64,000 nt of DNA from Bryobacterales bacterium (GTDB lineage: Bacteria; Acidobacteriota; Terriglobia; Bryobacterales; UBA6623), in contig JAPPMG010000096.1 in assembly GCA_028819215.1 (NCBI GenBank), positions 1 to 64,000 of the forward strand, given 5' to 3'. Positions 31,811 to 38,292 of the stretch are shown here, piece after piece (the first letter of the stretch is position 1; every line of letters begins with the position of its first letter). A model generated the notes under the pieces. That model made no database searches and was not told the DNA's origin. It saw nothing but the letters and a program-made list of their open reading frames with translations. Made by a program: the position numbers and the translations under genes.

Positions 31811-31864
31811 GGTGCGCCCATGGACGACACCGCCAGACTACGAAGAGCCTCTAGAGACAGAACC

Positions 31865-34456
31865 ATGAAGACGTTCTTGAACGTGATCCCCACCGTGCTC
31901 TTGGCAGCTGCTTTGACGGCACCGTTGGGTGCGCAGCTGACAGTCACGCAGGAGGGTGTCAGCGATCCCTCCACGCTGGGCGAGACGGTGACCCTCGATT
32001 CGACCGGAATCGGCCAGCGCGTAACGAGCCGCCTGTACTTGCAGTTCGACCCCGGCCTGGCCTCATCGCTGACACTGCGAAGTGTGCGCGTGATCGGTTC
32101 GCCGGAATTCAGCTACGAGCTCAAGGACGTTACGCGACTGCCCGTCGCGATCCAGAACGAACTCCGACTGGACTTGTTCGTGTTCTACCTGCCCAGCAGT
32201 CCCGGCCCCGCCCAGGCAACGTTGGAATTGACGCTGCGCACCGAGGGGTCCGACCTGCTGCCGTCGGATACCGTCTACGCCGTCAACTTGGTCGGCAGGG
32301 TGCCGGCCTACTCCCTGTCGTATGTCTTGCCGGGGACCGGTCGCGTGGACGTGCCGCCGGCGGGCACCGTCAGGTTCGGGCATAAGCCGACTGGCGTGTC
32401 CTCGGAGGCCACTCTGGTCCTGACCAATATCGGAAGCGCACCCGGTTTCGTGAACAGCTTCCAGCTTTCAGGCACAACTGCGTTTGCGCCCGTTGATCCT
32501 CCCACTTTCCCGACTCGGCTAGAGCCGGGCGGCAGCTTGAACGTCCAACTCGGATTCCGGCCGTCATCGACATTCTTGTACAGCGGGGAGTTGCGGGTCA
32601 TTCTGGATCGCAGCCCGGCGCTGCGGTATGCGCTGTCGGGGCAGGGCGGTGACCTGTTTAGCTTCCGCGTTGTCTCGTACGCCTCGGGCTCGAATGCTGG
32701 CAGGTCTGAGCGGGTCCAGTCGGGCACACCCATCGTGTTCGGACAGGACGCGAACTCAGTGCAGGTTGTTGCGGAGAACATCCGGCAGAGCGCGCTTCTG
32801 CTGGAATCGATCAGTCTTTCCGGCCCATTCGTTATGGTCGACGCCCCCCAGCTTCCAAGAACTGTCGCGCCGGGCGGTAGCGTTGTGGTCACGATCGAGC
32901 CGAATCCAGCTGCGGGCGTCGACGTGGCGGGGGAGTTGGTCATTGGGGGTGCCGTGTTCCCGCTGTCGATCAACGCACCGACCCTACCGTCTGTCCGCTA
33001 CACTTCGACTGGTGGGGCCTTGCGGCCGGGCGAGCAGACTTCGCTCGGCCTGAGCTTGGCAAGTCCCTACCCGGTCAACATCAGCGGCACATTGCACCTG
33101 ACCTCAGAGTCGCTGGAAGCCTCTCGCGATGTGTCGCTGCAGTGGTCCAGCGGCGGGACTGTCGTTGATTTCGAGATCCCTGCCGGACAGACCGCTGCGG
33201 CGTTTGCCGGGGGCGCGTCGGCGATCGAGTTCCAAGCCGGCTTGGTTTCGGGCGAGATCGTGATTTCGGCCCGGTTCGCGGCCGACCCATGGGGCATCGA
33301 CATCACACCCGTCCTCGCGCCCGAGGTGCGCTACAGCGTCGATATCGCGAACCTGCCCGAGGTGACATTCTCCCAAGCGGGAGGCGCGGTCGATGCGGGC
33401 AAAGACATCGCATTGGGCCTGAGTCTGGCGGCACCGTACCCGGAAGATATCGCGGGAACGCTCGAACTTTCCTTCACGGCGTCGGATATTGCCGGGGCCG
33501 GAGGGGCCTGGGCTGGCGGACGTCAGGTCTCGTTCCAGATTCCTGCGGGCGGCACGGAGGCCATGTTCGGCGACAATCGAGCCACCGAGTTCTCTGCACC
33601 GACCTCCGAGGGCGAGCTGACCGTCACGGCGCGGTTTGCGACGGCGGACGCGGGGGCGGATCTCACGCCGGATCCGGCACCGGAGCTGGTGTATAGCGTG
33701 CAAGTCCTTCCTTTGCCCGCGCTGAGCTTTTCGCACAGCGGCGGAACGGTGGGAGCAGCAGAACAGGTTTCGATGCAAGTCAGCATCGCCGAAACCTATC
33801 CGAACGATATCGTGGGAGCCTTGAACTTGGCGGTTGAGACGCGCAGGTTCGCGGCCGATCCGACCGTCCAGTGGGCAAGCGGCGGGCGCCAGGCGTTCTT
33901 CGTCATCTTCGCTAGCACGACCGAGGCGATTTTCACGGGGCAGGCGACATCCAATGCATTCCAGACTGGGACGGTCGCAGGTGAGATCGTCCTAACCGCC
34001 CAGCTCTTCTCGGTCCCGAACGGTTACGCCAACACCTCCATAGATCGAGTAGTTTCAGCCTCGGCGGATATTACACCTGACACAAGGCCTGAACTTCGGT
34101 TCAATGTGCGGGAAGCCGAACCGGTCTTGCAGCGGGTCGCCTTGGCCGGCACCGGTCAAGGTGGGTTCAACCTGCAAGTGACAGGCTTCAGCACTACGCG
34201 GCAGGTTGATTCGCTGACGTTCGCATTCACCGCCAGCAGCGGCTCGGTGCTGGAGAGCGATTCCATCACTGTGGACGTCGCGGATTCGTTCACGACCTAC
34301 TTCGAGAGCAACCAGTCAGCGGCGACGGGTGGCAGGTTCACCGCCACGGTGAACTTTAGCGTAGACGAGGGCGCTTTTGAAGACATTGGAGCGGTGTCGG
34401 TCACAGCGACCAACTCCTTGGGGACGTCGAACTCGGTCTCGCTCAATCTGAACTGA
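31865..34456 (+). CDS. Large exported protein with three tandem repeat domains
   Basis: An 863-residue protein with a signal peptide (MKTFLNVIPTVLLAAALTAP, then L-G-A-Q). Residues 165-260 and about 290-370 look like ASH/choice-of-anchor D Ig modules. Residues 377-748 hold three tandem repeats (see the repeat entry). The C-terminal 110 residues are a separate beta-rich domain. No catalytic motif or membrane anchor is visible, so a secreted or surface structural or adhesive role is likely. ATG at 31865 is chosen because the signal peptide begins there; 15 in-frame codons precede it. Confidence 0.75.
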   Translation: MKTFLNVIPTVLLAAALTAPLGAQLTVTQEGVSDPSTLGETVTLDSTGIGQRVTSRLYLQFDPGLASSLTLRSVRVIGSPEFSYELKDVTRLPVAIQNELRLDLFVFYLPSSPGPAQATLELTLRTEGSDLLPSDTVYAVNLVGRVPAYSLSYVLPGTGRVDVPPAGTVRFGHKPTGVSSEATLVLTNIGSAPGFVNSFQLSGTTAFAPVDPPTFPTRLEPGGSLNVQLGFRPSSTFLYSGELRVILDRSPALRYALSGQGGDLFSFRVVSYASGSNAGRSERVQSGTPIVFGQDANSVQVVAENIRQSALLLESISLSGPFVMVDAPQLPRTVAPGGSVVVTIEPNPAAGVDVAGELVIGGAVFPLSINAPTLPSVRYTSTGGALRPGEQTSLGLSLASPYPVNISGTLHLTSESLEASRDVSLQWSSGGTVVDFEIPAGQTAAAFAGGASAIEFQAGLVSGEIVISARFAADPWGIDITPVLAPEVRYSVDIANLPEVTFSQAGGAVDAGKDIALGLSLAAPYPEDIAGTLELSFTASDIAGAGGAWAGGRQVSFQIPAGGTEAMFGDNRATEFSAPTSEGELTVTARFATADAGADLTPDPAPELVYSVQVLPLPALSFSHSGGTVGAAEQVSMQVSIAETYPNDIVGALNLAVETRRFAADPTVQWASGGRQAFFVIFASTTEAIFTGQATSNAFQTGTVAGEIVLTAQLFSVPNGYANTSIDRVVSASADITPDTRPELRFNVREAEPVLQRVALAGTGQGGFNLQVTGFSTTRQVDSLTFAFTASSGSVLESDSITVDVADSFTTYFESNQSAATGGRFTATVNFSVDEGAFEDIGAVSVTATNSLGTSNSVSLNLN
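32993..34108 (+). repeat. Three tandem domain repeats of about 121 residues
   Basis: Within the 863-residue protein, three modules begin at residues 377, 499 and 619. Each opens with V/L-x-F/Y-x-x-S/A-G-G and then carries L-S-L-A-S-P-Y-P-V-N-I-S-G-T-L (396-410), L-S-L-A-A-P-Y-P-E-D-I-A-G-T-L (519-533) or V-S-I-A-E-T-Y-P-N-D-I-V-G-A-L (639-653). All end near the next module with a T-P-x-x-A/R-P-E-L/V motif. The copies are clearly related but diverged, so the duplication is old. Confidence 0.8.
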
Positions 34457-34519: not shown

Positions 34520-35458
34520 GTGGCCGGCCCGGATCGCAAGCTTCGGACTCGATTCGCGCCTAGTCCCACCGGTTACCTGCACTTGGGCCATGTGGCTCAC
34601 ATGTTGTACGTGTGGGGCGTAGCGGAGATTCTGGGCGCCGAAGTCTTGCTCAGGATCGAAGATCATGACCGCCAGCGGAGTCAGCGCCGGTATGAGCGCG
34701 AACTATTGCGTGACTTGGAGTGGCTAGGATTCGAGCCGGTGAATCGGCTCGCCGAGCGGTCGAGCAGCTATCGCCAGAGCGACTGCCACGAAGCCTTCGC
34801 GCATGCCCTGCGCCGATTGGAGCGCAGCTACCCGGTCTATCGCTGCGTTTGTACCCGCAAGCAGCTCGCGGATGCCGCAGACCCGGAGGCGTTCGGCGAG
34901 CAGCCTTACCCGGGTACGTGCAGGAATGCCGCTCATCCAGCCTCGCAGCCTCACGGCTTGCGGCTGGCATGGGAGCCGGATGCCGCCGCCGAGGCGTTCA
35001 CCGACGGGTTGCTGGGCCGGCATCGGCAAGAGCCGCGCGAGCAGTGCGGAGACCTGCTGCTGCGGGATCGCAACGGGAACTGGAGCTACCAATTCTCGGT
35101 CACGGTCGATGACGTGCGCCACGGCGTGGATTTCGTGGTTCGCGGGGAAGACCTGCTACAGTCGACCGGCCGCCAGTTGCGGCTGGCCCGGATGCTGGGT
35201 GCGGTCAAGCGGCCGGCCTTTTACCACCACCCCTTGGTCCGCGATGCGCGAGGAGCGAAGCTGGGCAAGCGGCAGGGCTCTCCGGCTGTCCGCGAATTGC
35301 GCCAGGGCGGCATCTGCGCGGCCAGGGTGCTTGGCGAGGCGGCGTCCGGGGCTGGCCTGATTCCTGAGCCGAGGGCCATCCCCGCGAACGCGGCTGCCGA
35401 GCTGATAGCGGTACGCCATCCCGGGCTCGGGCGTCGAGACGATCCTGGCCGAGGGTGA
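34520..35458 (+). CDS. gluQ: Glutamyl-Q tRNA(Asp) synthetase
   Basis: A 312-residue class I synthetase paralogue lacking the anticodon-binding domain. It makes glutamyl-queuosine at the wobble base of tRNA(Asp). Key blocks are F-A-P-S-P-T-G-Y-L-H-L-G-H (HIGH), R-I-E-D-H-D, and K-L-G-K-R (KMSKS-like). The zinc set Y-R-C-V-C and Y-P-G-T-C is present. It starts at a GTG, after the terminator hairpin, and its 3' end faces the DnaC-like gene. Confidence 0.9.
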   Translation: MAGPDRKLRTRFAPSPTGYLHLGHVAHMLYVWGVAEILGAEVLLRIEDHDRQRSQRRYERELLRDLEWLGFEPVNRLAERSSSYRQSDCHEAFAHALRRLERSYPVYRCVCTRKQLADAADPEAFGEQPYPGTCRNAAHPASQPHGLRLAWEPDAAAEAFTDGLLGRHRQEPREQCGDLLLRDRNGNWSYQFSVTVDDVRHGVDFVVRGEDLLQSTGRQLRLARMLGAVKRPAFYHHPLVRDARGAKLGKRQGSPAVRELRQGGICAARVLGEAASGAGLIPEPRAIPANAAAELIAVRHPGLGRRDDPGRG

Positions 35459-35472
35459 AAGCTATCCGAGAC

Positions 35473-36246
35473 TCAGCCGCGGCTGCGGGATGCGACTGCA
35501 ACGGGTCGTTCAGTGACCGGCACGGCAACTGGCACCGGCACACAGATGGATTCGAGCATTTCGGCGCATTGGCGTCCGATGCGCTGGGCGAGCGTGTCTT
35601 GGGATCGCGCGGCGGCGTACATCGCCTGCGTGCCGAGCTGAGTCTCCGCTGCCATCGTGGCAAGCGGCAGCCCCGTAGTGGCCAACAGGCCCAGCCTGTT
35701 GTGGTAGCGATGCTTGACGATTGAGTAGATCGTGTCTTGGGCCCAATCCGTGGGCCTGCGCTCGCCAAGCGATTCGATCAACAGCACGTCTACAGACTTG
35801 ACCTTGGCTGCGAGCTCTTCACGCTCGTCGGCAGCGTCGCCGGGGCGGCTCTGGAGGGCCTGTAACAAGTCTTGATATTCGAAGAAGAGACAGCTCAAGC
35901 CCTTGTCTGCCAGCCGCTTCAGCGTCGCCACGGCTAGGTGCGTCTGCCGTTCCATGGTGCCGCCGTGAAAAATGAGCCCTTTCGATGGCTCGATCGGAAA
36001 GCCATCAGCGAACCGCATGCCCTTGGCCATCGCCGCGGTCAGGATTTGGTGCTTCTGGGGCTCCGTGGCATAGACCCCGGCACTGAAGTTGTCAAAGCTG
36101 GCGTCGGCAAAGCGAGGCGGCAAGCGCAGCGGGCCGTACTGTGAAGCGACTCCGCCGCCCTCGTGGCAACGGCACCGCTTGGACGCAGTGAAGCCTCCCG
36201 GCAGCTGCACTTGCACCCAGCCCGTGTCTCGGCATTCGCTGCACAT
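35473..36246 (-). CDS. DnaC/IstB-like protein with eroded ATPase motifs
   Basis: A 257-residue DnaC-like protein. The N-terminus has a zinc-knuckle-like C2-x2-C5 and C25-x-C27. The expected P-loop position holds G95-G-T-M-E-R-Q101-T-H103 instead of G-P-P-G-T-G-K-T-H, so the glycines and catalytic lysine are gone. Walker B is L-L-I-E-S-L-G-E (both acidic residues altered), and sensor 1 reads T-T-G-L rather than T-T-N-L. Downstream T-D-W-A-Q-D-T-I, H-R-Y-H-N-R and Q-R-I-G-R confirm the family. ATG at 36246 is preferred because it starts at the knuckle. It lies 40 bases after the biotin-carrier gene. Confidence 0.72.
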   Translation of the reverse strand: MCSECRDTGWVQVQLPGGFTASKRCRCHEGGGVASQYGPLRLPPRFADASFDNFSAGVYATEPQKHQILTAAMAKGMRFADGFPIEPSKGLIFHGGTMERQTHLAVATLKRLADKGLSCLFFEYQDLLQALQSRPGDAADEREELAAKVKSVDVLLIESLGERRPTDWAQDTIYSIVKHRYHNRLGLLATTGLPLATMAAETQLGTQAMYAAARSQDTLAQRIGRQCAEMLESICVPVPVAVPVTERPVAVASRSRG

Positions 36247-36286: not shown

Positions 36287-36775
36287 CTATTCAACCACCA
36301 CCAAGGTGTCCCCGGCCGAAACCGAATCGCCCGCGCTGACGTGGACAGCCGCGACCCGTCCGGCACAGGGGGAGCGCAGCTCATTCTGCATCTTCATCGC
36401 TTCCACCACCAAGAGACCTTGGTCACTGCGAACCTCGTCGCCGACCTGCACTCGCACAGACAGCACCTTGCCGGGCATCGGCGTGCGTACCGCTTGCGAG
36501 CCGCCGGCCGCCAATCCCGCCATGTCACCCGACAGGCGTCGCGGGTCGCGAATCTCGACAGCAAGCGCCGTTCCGGCCACATGGGCCTCATACGAGCCTT
36601 GGGCGGACCGATTGACGACGACGGTGTGCTGGCTCCCGTCCACGATCACCGAGTAGCTGTCCCGACCTATGCAGCGAATGTTCGTCTCCGAACGACGCCC
36701 GTCGATCTCGCACGAATCCGGGCCGATGCGCAGGCTCCACGGGGTGCCGTCCACGACGAGGTCGACCTTCTTCAT
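36287..36775 (-). CDS. Biotin carboxyl carrier protein (acyl-CoA carboxylase type)
   Basis: A 162-residue protein. Residues 1-90 are a poorly conserved beta-rich region as in the end of MCC/PCC alpha subunits; residues 95-162 form the biotinyl domain with E-A-M-K128-M, the biotinylated lysine. The start at 36775 overlaps the biotin carboxylase stop by four bases. With that gene it makes a split version of an alpha chain. The carboxyltransferase is not in the window. Confidence 0.9.
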   Translation of the reverse strand: MKKVDLVVDGTPWSLRIGPDSCEIDGRRSETNIRCIGRDSYSVIVDGSQHTVVVNRSAQGSYEAHVAGTALAVEIRDPRRLSGDMAGLAAGGSQAVRTPMPGKVLSVRVQVGDEVRSDQGLLVVEAMKMQNELRSPCAGRVAAVHVSAGDSVSAGDTLVVVE

Positions 36776-38292
36776 CGCTCCGTGCCTCGGGCCGCGACAC
36801 TCTCGATTCTCCCGTAGCGCTTCCACGCCGAGTTTGGCTGCAGGCTCGCCGAGGCTTGATCGGCAGCGCGGCCCTGCTCCGCTTGGATCACCGCGAGGAC
36901 GGCTGCCAGACGCGCCTCGAGCGACGGGGCCGATGCGGCGCTCGCGGCCGGGTCGATGCCGCGCGCTAGGAACCCGGTGTCAATGTCGCCGGCTTGGAAC
37001 TGCGGATCCTCCATCAATTCGCGAAAGAACCCCAGGGTCGTGGCGATGCCGCTGATGGTCGCCTCGCGCAGCGCGCCCCGCAGCCTGTCGATGGCTTCCG
37101 CCCTGGTCGGCGCCCAAGCGCAGAGCTTGGCGATCAATGGGTCGTACTGGATCGGGACAGTCCAGCCTTCGTCTGCACCGGAATCGACCCGGATGCCGGG
37201 ACCGCCCGGCATTGCCATGCGCCGGATCAGGCCGGGAGAAGGCATGAAGTTGGCGCTGGCGTCTTCCGCATACACGCGGCACTCCATGGCGTGGCCGCGA
37301 AACCGGACCGCTTCTTGGGAGAAGCCCAGCGTTTCGCCGGCCGCCACGCGGACCTGCTGCTTGACAAGATCCATTCCCGTCACCAGTTCGGTGACGGGAT
37401 GCTCGACCTGCAAGCGGGTGTTCATTTCCAAGAAGTAGAAGCGGCAGTCGGCGTCCATGAGGAACTCGATCGTGCCCGCATTGGCATAGCCGATGGCGCT
37501 GGCTGCTGCGATGGCCGCCGAATAGAGCTGCTCGCGGACATGGGGGTTTGCTTCTACCAGCGGCGAGGGGCTCTCTTCGAGCACCTTCTGGTGCCGCCGC
37601 TGCAGGCTGCATTCGCGCTCGCCGAGGTGGACCACGGCCCCGTGCTCGTCGGCTAGGATTTGGACTTCGACATGGTGCGGGCGGAGGATCGCCTTCTCCA
37701 AGTACACTGCACCGTCCCCGAACGCTTCTAGGGCTTCGCCTTGCGCTTGTTCCCAGGCGCTCTCGAGCTGTGCAGGCGACTCTACTAGGCGCATCCCCTT
37801 GCCGCCGCCGCCGGCGGACGCCTTGAGCATCACCGGGTAGCCGATCTGACTGGCCAAGGCAGCGGCTTGGCGAGAATCCGTTGCCTCTGGCGTGCCGGGA
37901 ACAACCGGGACGCCTGCCTGCGACATGAGCTCGCGGGCGCGCGTCTTGATTCCCATGGAGCGAATCGCAGCTGCGGGCGGCCCGATGAACTTGATCCCCG
38001 CGCCCTCGCAGGCTTGGGCGAACTCCGCGTTTTCGCTGAGGAAGCCATAGCCTGGGTGGATGGCATTCGCTCCCGCCGAGCCGGCCGCGTCCAATACGCG
38101 GTCGATATTGAGGTAGCTCTCGGCCGGAGGGGCGGCGCCGACGGCGCAGGCCTCATCGGCTAGTCGGACGTGCTTTGCCTCGCGGTCGGCGTCCGAATAG
38201 ATGGCGACCGTTGCGATGCCCATTTCGCGGCACGTGCGTATGATCCGCACCGCGATCTCGCCGCGGTTGGCTACCAATATCTTGCGGAACAC
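36772..38292 (-). CDS. accC: Biotin carboxylase subunit of an acyl-CoA carboxylase
   Basis: A 506-residue ATP-grasp enzyme that carboxylates biotin. It starts MFRKILVANRGEIAVR and has K-A-S-A-G-G-G-G-K-G-M-R, E-C-S-L-Q-R-R-H-Q-K, F-L-E-M-N-T-R-L-Q-V-E-H-P-V-T-E and the C-terminal biotin carboxylase domain. The final 60 residues are a linker-like extension. Longer than the ~450-residue AccC, it is nearer to MCC/PCC alpha chains, cut before the biotinyl domain. The acyl-CoA substrate is unknown. Confidence 0.93.
   Translation of the reverse strand: MFRKILVANRGEIAVRIIRTCREMGIATVAIYSDADREAKHVRLADEACAVGAAPPAESYLNIDRVLDAAGSAGANAIHPGYGFLSENAEFAQACEGAGIKFIGPPAAAIRSMGIKTRARELMSQAGVPVVPGTPEATDSRQAAALASQIGYPVMLKASAGGGGKGMRLVESPAQLESAWEQAQGEALEAFGDGAVYLEKAILRPHHVEVQILADEHGAVVHLGERECSLQRRHQKVLEESPSPLVEANPHVREQLYSAAIAAASAIGYANAGTIEFLMDADCRFYFLEMNTRLQVEHPVTELVTGMDLVKQQVRVAAGETLGFSQEAVRFRGHAMECRVYAEDASANFMPSPGLIRRMAMPGGPGIRVDSGADEGWTVPIQYDPLIAKLCAWAPTRAEAIDRLRGALREATISGIATTLGFFRELMEDPQFQAGDIDTGFLARGIDPAASAASAPSLEARLAAVLAVIQAEQGRAADQASASLQPNSAWKRYGRIESVAARGTER

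Follow-up and report, generated by a model that had tools for sequence, protein, structure and literature searches.

A DnaC-like AAA+ protein without ATPase motifs that is retained across a genus of Bryobacterales

The window analysed here, a stretch of 64 000 nt from a Bryobacterales genome assembly (contig JAPPMG010000096.1), encodes a DnaC-like protein that we take, at about even odds (probability roughly 0.5), to be an AAA+ protein that has become inactive, formerly a helicase loader and presumably retained for binding without ATP, most probably to DnaB. Judged by its sequence the protein can hardly bind or hydrolyse ATP, since it has lost the glycines and lysine of the P-loop, the catalytic acid of Walker B, sensor I and the greater part of box VII. 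A preliminary description of this DNA had proposed a pseudo-ATPase relative of the helicase loaders that is kept for binding; the family, the loss and the retention are borne out by homology, by loss in 11 of 11 members of the genus, whose acidobacteria are uncultured, and by purifying selection respectively, whereas binding as the reason for the retention is something that we infer.

The locus and the family of the protein

The gene is the last of a trio that begins with accC, and the three members are as follows.

35473..36246, minus strand: DnaC-like protein without ATPase motifs, 257 aa, N-terminus MCSECRDTGW (translation of the ORF)
36287..36826, minus strand: biotin carboxyl carrier protein (Pfam Biotin_lipoyl, 3.2e-20), upstream of the dnaC-like gene and in the same transcription unit, an order that is conserved
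36772..38292, minus strand: biotin carboxylase AccC (Pfam CPSase_L_D2, Biotin_carb_N and Biotin_carb_C), gene 1 of the accC-carrier-dnaC trio

The biotin-operon context described earlier is thus correct, with accC (38292-36772) and the carrier gene (36826-36287) on the same strand as the DnaC-like gene, of which the 5.86 Mb genome holds one copy. A glutamyl-queuosine-tRNA-synthetase-like gene (Pfam tRNA-synt_1c; 34520-35458, plus strand) converges on the DnaC-like gene with a gap of about 15 bp, an arrangement also seen in congeners and in a genome of the same family (G014), and positions 31820-34456 encode an 878-residue protein in which a HYDIN/ASH-type Ig-like domain is accompanied by internal repeats and which lies near leuA and is conserved in the genus.

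Kinship with DnaC is evident both in the sequence and in the predicted fold. The PHROG 50 profile ('DnaC-like helicase loader') matches residues 2-199, including the N-terminal Cys module, at 1.3e-24, and the best match among solved structures is to Aquifex aeolicus DnaC (PDB 3ec2; 7e-14, family profile 2.9e-37), well above those to DnaI and IstB. Pfam IstB_IS21 (PF01695) scores 27 bits against a cut-off of 24, the NCBIfam DnaC match (8.6e-08) is under its cut-off, PADLOC gives a weak match only, and profile matches to DnaI begin downstream of the four-Cys module. The closest structure to an AlphaFold model of the protein (mean pLDDT 82) is again 3ec2 (Z 22.4, rmsd 1.9 over 168 residues), followed at Z 18-20 by DnaI, E. 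coli DnaC, DnaA and IstB; the underlying alignment comprised 5 congeners and 44 relatives from viral contigs, mostly intact, and the predicted model may therefore lean to the family fold. A 6-sequence model with a pLDDT of 36 was discarded. These matches agree with the DnaC kinship recognized in the preliminary description and contradict the notion that the family is unrelated to DnaC.

The protein shares the Pfam family PF01695 with IstB of IS21 elements, and an IstB was considered and rejected. IstB follows istA in a transposon, whereas the window gene has lost its ATPase site and lies in a chromosomal trio with accC and the biotin carrier as neighbours, conserved across the order.

The former nucleotide site and the residues that are kept

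The following positions, all on the minus strand, mark the slots of the former ATPase motifs and the principal retained or genus-specific residues; 'intact' refers to the 49 aligned orthologues from other genera of the order.

36166..36243: N-terminal zinc-knuckle-like segment CxxC...CxC (Cys 2, 5, 25 and 27); Cys invariant in 11/11 congeners and 49/49 intact
35965..35967: His94, fixed in the genus; 11/11 in the genus, 0/49 intact
35941..35964: former Walker A slot, GGTMERQT; Gly98, Gly100 and Lys101 lost
35764..35787: former Walker B slot, VLLIESLG; catalytic Asp/Glu replaced by Ser in 10/11 and by Gly in 1/11
35743..35751: retained half of the ssDNA-contact tetrad, Thr166 and Trp168 (S177 and Y179 of E. 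coli DnaC); Thr/Ser in 11/11, Trp in 11/11
35668..35685: former sensor I, LATTGL; Asn replaced by Gly, Ala or Ser in 11/11, Asn in 49/49 intact
35542..35601: former box VII (Arg-finger region), QDTLAQRIGRQCAEMLESIC; intact consensus RARSRLFEMC
35506..35514: C-terminal DYR position (likely sensor II), lost; Asp in 0/11 against 49/49 intact, Arg in 7/11 against 49/49

As reported earlier, GGTMERQT occupies the place of GxPGxGKT at the same length. The Walker A lysine is kept in a single congener of the 11 (G006) and both glycines of GxG are lost in every one; six different fillings of the slot occur in the genus (n=11; GGTMERQT, GGSIEWRT, GGSPAKMT, GGPTTEMT, GGSPRDKT and GSDMDRVR), and it ranks 15th of 148 five-residue segments in variability, which places it among the more variable core stretches within the genus. 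The previous claim that both Walker B acids had gone is right for the second, catalytic one, which corresponds to E170 of E. coli DnaC and is Ser159 in the window protein, but not for the first, which is conservatively Glu here, Asp in six of the ten other congeners and one or the other acid in all 11. The loss of the sensor I Asn (TTN to TTG, Gly192 in the window protein) stands as described. Three losses come in addition to those noted before; they concern Arg230 of box VII, the DYR Asp and, in the ssDNA tetrad, the aromatic residue (Pro135 here). Arg230, a position to which the arginine finger is assigned by alignment inference, is Met in the window protein and five congeners, which together are the six closest species, and Arg in the other 5 of 11.

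The pattern of loss is not due to chance, since among 56 columns with a conservation of 95 % or more across the 49 intact orthologues, not one of the nine nucleotide-site columns (assigned by hand) is kept in 11/11 congeners as against 27 of the 47 others (Fisher p 0.0019). Mapped through the 6qel alignment, the equivalents of E. coli DnaC K112 (10/11), E170 (11/11), N203 (11/11) and F146 (11/11) are lost in the genus, and all four are absent from the window protein. The Aquifex DnaC (PDB 3ec2/3ecc), despite its common AAA+ fold and its standing as the best match, differs in that its Walker A, Walker B and sensor I are all intact; its structure was determined with ADP-BeF3. The window protein has neither Walker A (GxxGxGKT) nor the catalytic acid of Walker B, the sensor I Asn or the box VII arginine finger, and with DnaC descent but none of these features it is better regarded as a variant than as a working member of the DnaC family.

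What is kept in the window protein includes T102, H103 and L104, the four Cys residues, W168, R164 and R180; Thr102 is conserved in 9/11 congeners, and Cys, Gly and Trp positions are invariant in 11/11. The ssDNA tetrad of E. coli DnaC (PDB 6qel/6qem), whose AAA+ domain is homologous, consists of K143, F146, S177 and Y179, and these correspond to Gln132, Pro135, Thr166 and Trp168, so that half of it is represented; the N-terminal helicase-binding domain of E. coli DnaC is, by contrast, unmatched by the four-Cys module. Residues that are fixed in the genus and rare among intact members include H94, L131, A146, S159, K178 and L195, and these may point to a new constraint more than to simple erosion.

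History of the loss and the linkage to accC

A single-copy DnaC-like ATPase with a zinc knuckle is present in 131 of 149 sampled acidobacterial genomes, most of them drafts and probably metagenome assemblies; those relatives that carry a name are metagenome assemblies of Bryobacterales and Terriglobia. An orthologue was found in 60 of 61 related genomes, the exception (G011) being 74 % complete and also without DnaB and DciA matches. Each of the 11 genomes analysed from the genus has a single copy, with a broken P-loop, and elsewhere in the order 49/49 aligned orthologues have GxGKTHLA, D-D in Walker B and the sensor I Asn, while GKT is present in 90/90 orthologues from the rest of the phylum (a further 40 phylum matches lie outside this count). 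The P-loop reported as eroded in the preliminary description is broken in all congeners (11/11), and in none of the orthologues of the order (0/49) or the remaining phylum (0/90). As all congeners are broken and all other genera intact, we interpret this as an old, lineage-specific loss and not as a decaying copy; the earlier argument from the open frame against recent decay extends to the whole genus, since all 11 congeners share the loss with frames open in 11/11, and recent decay of a single copy was rejected for this reason.

In phylogenetic trees the genus forms one clade with a support of 100/100 and a long stem, and when viral and phylum sequences are included it joins G014 (96/86), whose DnaC-like gene is intact and which also has the GluQ-like, Ig-like and leuA genes as neighbours. 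Alignment and tree together show the gene to be that of a resident acidobacterial DnaC-like AAA+ protein, inherited vertically. Horizontal gain from a motif-less phage was rejected, since the genus groups with the intact G014 and not with a viral clade that has DSLG in Walker B. The simplest reading of the tree would be one loss event on the genus stem, with the long branches as a caveat.

The order accC-carrier-dnaC is the same in 11/11 congeners, in other members of the family and in much of the order, so that orthology rests on position as well as sequence. The intact orthologues (for example in G014 and G015) share with the window gene the knuckle, the trio and, for the most part, the position, and are distinguished by ATPase motifs that are complete in 49/49 within the order and by an intact P-loop in 90/90 within the phylum. 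The trio was found in 0/60 stretches from the rest of the phylum, and recurrent neighbours outside the order look like dnaJ, hspR, dnaK, a sigma factor and SSB (sequences read by eye). Because the linkage to accC is equally present with intact orthologues it must be older than the loss of the ATPase, and the carboxylase operon, to which a tie had been suggested, does not account for it.

The same observation weakens the proposal that the protein is a dead AAA+ scaffold recruited away from the helicase, for example as a regulator or partner of the biotin-carboxylase operon. This seems unlikely to us, although the co-directional linkage to accC and the carrier gene in 11/11 congeners and much of the order fits it, the genus-fixed His94 and Lys178 suggest a new surface, and the known helicase machinery (DciA and DnaB) is complete without a DnaC-like protein. 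The residues that are kept are, however, those of the family core, including the DNA-contact residue Trp168, and the linkage predates the loss.

Helicase machinery, constraint and possible roles

DciA is present in 11/11 congeners, each of which has one DnaB with an intact Walker A, and a by-eye comparison found nothing specific that would indicate a coordinated change of DnaB in the genus. A search for an intact DnaC orthologue elsewhere in the genome, which the preliminary description had asked for, found none among the PF01695-family matches: the strong ones in the window genome look like IS21 IstB on ORF reading (IstB-like copies on contigs C70 and C86), the weaker ones are taken as DnaA and other AAA proteins from their length and matched region only, and the single-contig congener G008 has only the DnaC-like gene and a DnaA-sized match. 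With DciA in 11/11 and no intact DnaC found, loading probably falls to DciA, which acts independently of ATP, so that nothing may have kept the DnaC-like protein from losing its ATPase activity. DciA (DUF721) is, like the window protein, without a P-loop, and is an ATP-independent helicase operator, although it belongs to an unrelated family and is encoded separately in the same genomes. The sampled genomes of the acidobacterial family f25 (e.g. G087, G147 and G157) have a DciA match and no DnaC-like gene, and the gene can therefore be lost.

By alignment and tree the nucleotide engine was dismantled in the ancestor of the genus, most simply once; retained under purifying selection were an AAA+ core of predicted fold, the N-terminal module with its four Cys and two of the four ssDNA-contact positions. 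We propose that the protein most likely still binds the helicase. The N-terminal module would hold the helicase DnaB, the inert core could act as a scaffold or make a weak contact with ssDNA without an ATP switch, and DciA would carry ATP-independent loading in the genus. Biochemical precedents in DnaC and DnaI indicate that an inert AAA+ core with a Cys module could still hold DnaB. The helicase-binding domain of E. coli DnaC, on its own and free of the ATPase, reaches about half of wild-type DnaB loading, and DnaC with a mutated Walker A comes close to the wild type (PMC8213410); the N-terminal domain of Bacillus DnaI is a zinc fold that contacts DnaB (PMC3791466). DnaI (PDB 4m4w, 2w58) likewise has its AAA+ domain after a zinc-binding module, here a four-Cys module of putative kinship, and is distinguished by an AAA+ ATPase with an intact site. 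Against this reading, half of the ssDNA tetrad is lost, and the gene evolves several times faster than in the intact clades, so that constraint is relaxed. The fuller version of this proposal, in which a DnaC-family loader has turned into an ATP-independent helicase chaperone beside DciA, its inactive scaffold kept across the genus, we put forward only tentatively. DnaB loading by the intact acidobacterial relatives is itself putative.

This last point leads to a reading that we consider rather improbable, namely that the intact acidobacterial family is some other DnaA/DnaC-like regulator, and that the genus lost a regulator's ATP switch and not that of a loader. A survey from 2016 counted dna[CI] genes as resident in no more than 5 of 26 phyla, Acidobacteria not being among the named domestications, and reported that dciA was lost wherever dna[CI] arrived (PMC5109545). 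In our sample of 149 acidobacterial genomes DciA is present in at least 92 (a minimum figure, because of the short DciA profile), the DnaC-like ATPase in the 131 given above and both in at least 79, contrary to the reported mutual replacement, and the recurrent neighbours outside the order look like dnaJ, hspR and dnaK and not like helicase genes. Against a regulator, A. aeolicus DnaC is the best match in sequence, well above DnaI and IstB, and also the first by fold, and the intact members conserve the tetrad with which DnaC contacts ssDNA.

The reading frames are open in all 11 species, and the codon substitutions indicate purifying selection. ML omega (IQ-TREE) is 0.276 for the six closest species, 0.160 for all eleven and 0.104 for the five divergent ones, as against 0.014-0.066 in seven intact sets (omega is from a one-ratio model, and dS in the wider sets may be saturated), so that constraint is relaxed several-fold (0.10-0.28 vs 0.01-0.07) and yet far from absent. 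For the six closest species the median pairwise dN/dS (NG86) is 0.385, compared with 0.126 for accC, 0.311 for the carrier gene and 0.241 for the GluQ-like gene. In neutral simulations scaled to dS, all six frames stayed open in 0/400 runs and all eleven in 0/300. A pseudogene or a gene in outright decay was rejected on these grounds.

A slower decay under relaxed selection, in which the ATPase became dispensable once DciA sufficed and the gene is drifting toward loss, would account for the raised omega, the long branches, the variability of the P-loop slot and the state of family f25, which has dispensed with the gene and kept DciA. We nevertheless give it little chance, since frames that neutral simulations lose are all open, the Cys, Gly and Trp positions do not vary, the gene is present in each of the 11 species of the genus and ML omega is well below 1. 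That nucleotide is still bound through a rebuilt, non-canonical site is hardly credible: Thr102 in 9/11, the first Walker B acid in 11/11 and the Lys of G006 might point that way, but there is no new consensus, because the P-loop fillings differ between subclades, and the genus has in addition lost sensor I and the catalytic acid.

Clamp loaders and origin complexes are known to contain AAA+ subunits that are inactive. Our searches of an open-access library yielded no inactive helicase loader of the DnaC/DnaI type. The loss of the ATPase together with retention of the gene in a relative of DnaC suggests an ATP-independent binding protein, and the genus with its surroundings provides a natural series, consisting of intact sister genera, apparently one event on the stem and 11 descendants with differing P-loop fillings, in which it can therefore be tested what portion of a DnaC-like protein remains useful once ATP is no longer used. 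The survey of this phylum also brings to light many genomes that have both a resident DnaC-like ATPase and DciA, despite the 2016 survey (PMC5109545).

Some of the other sequences have peculiarities of their own. L182, L184 and L186 (from G080, G064 and G107) are without the Cys knuckle and the sensor I Asn in the profile alignment and have the P-loop, which is the opposite of what the window genus shows. Orthologues in four genomes of family f6 (G118, G169, G078 and G196; three of genus g50 and one of g75) have one in-frame stop inside the match, which may be a recoded stop or a shared frame problem. Four sequences from viral contigs (L349, L368, L375 and L379) form the clade with DSLG in Walker B, without the sensor I Asn and with an intact P-loop; they are the nearest partial analogues of the motif loss that we found, and are possibly loaders that bind ATP and do not hydrolyse it.
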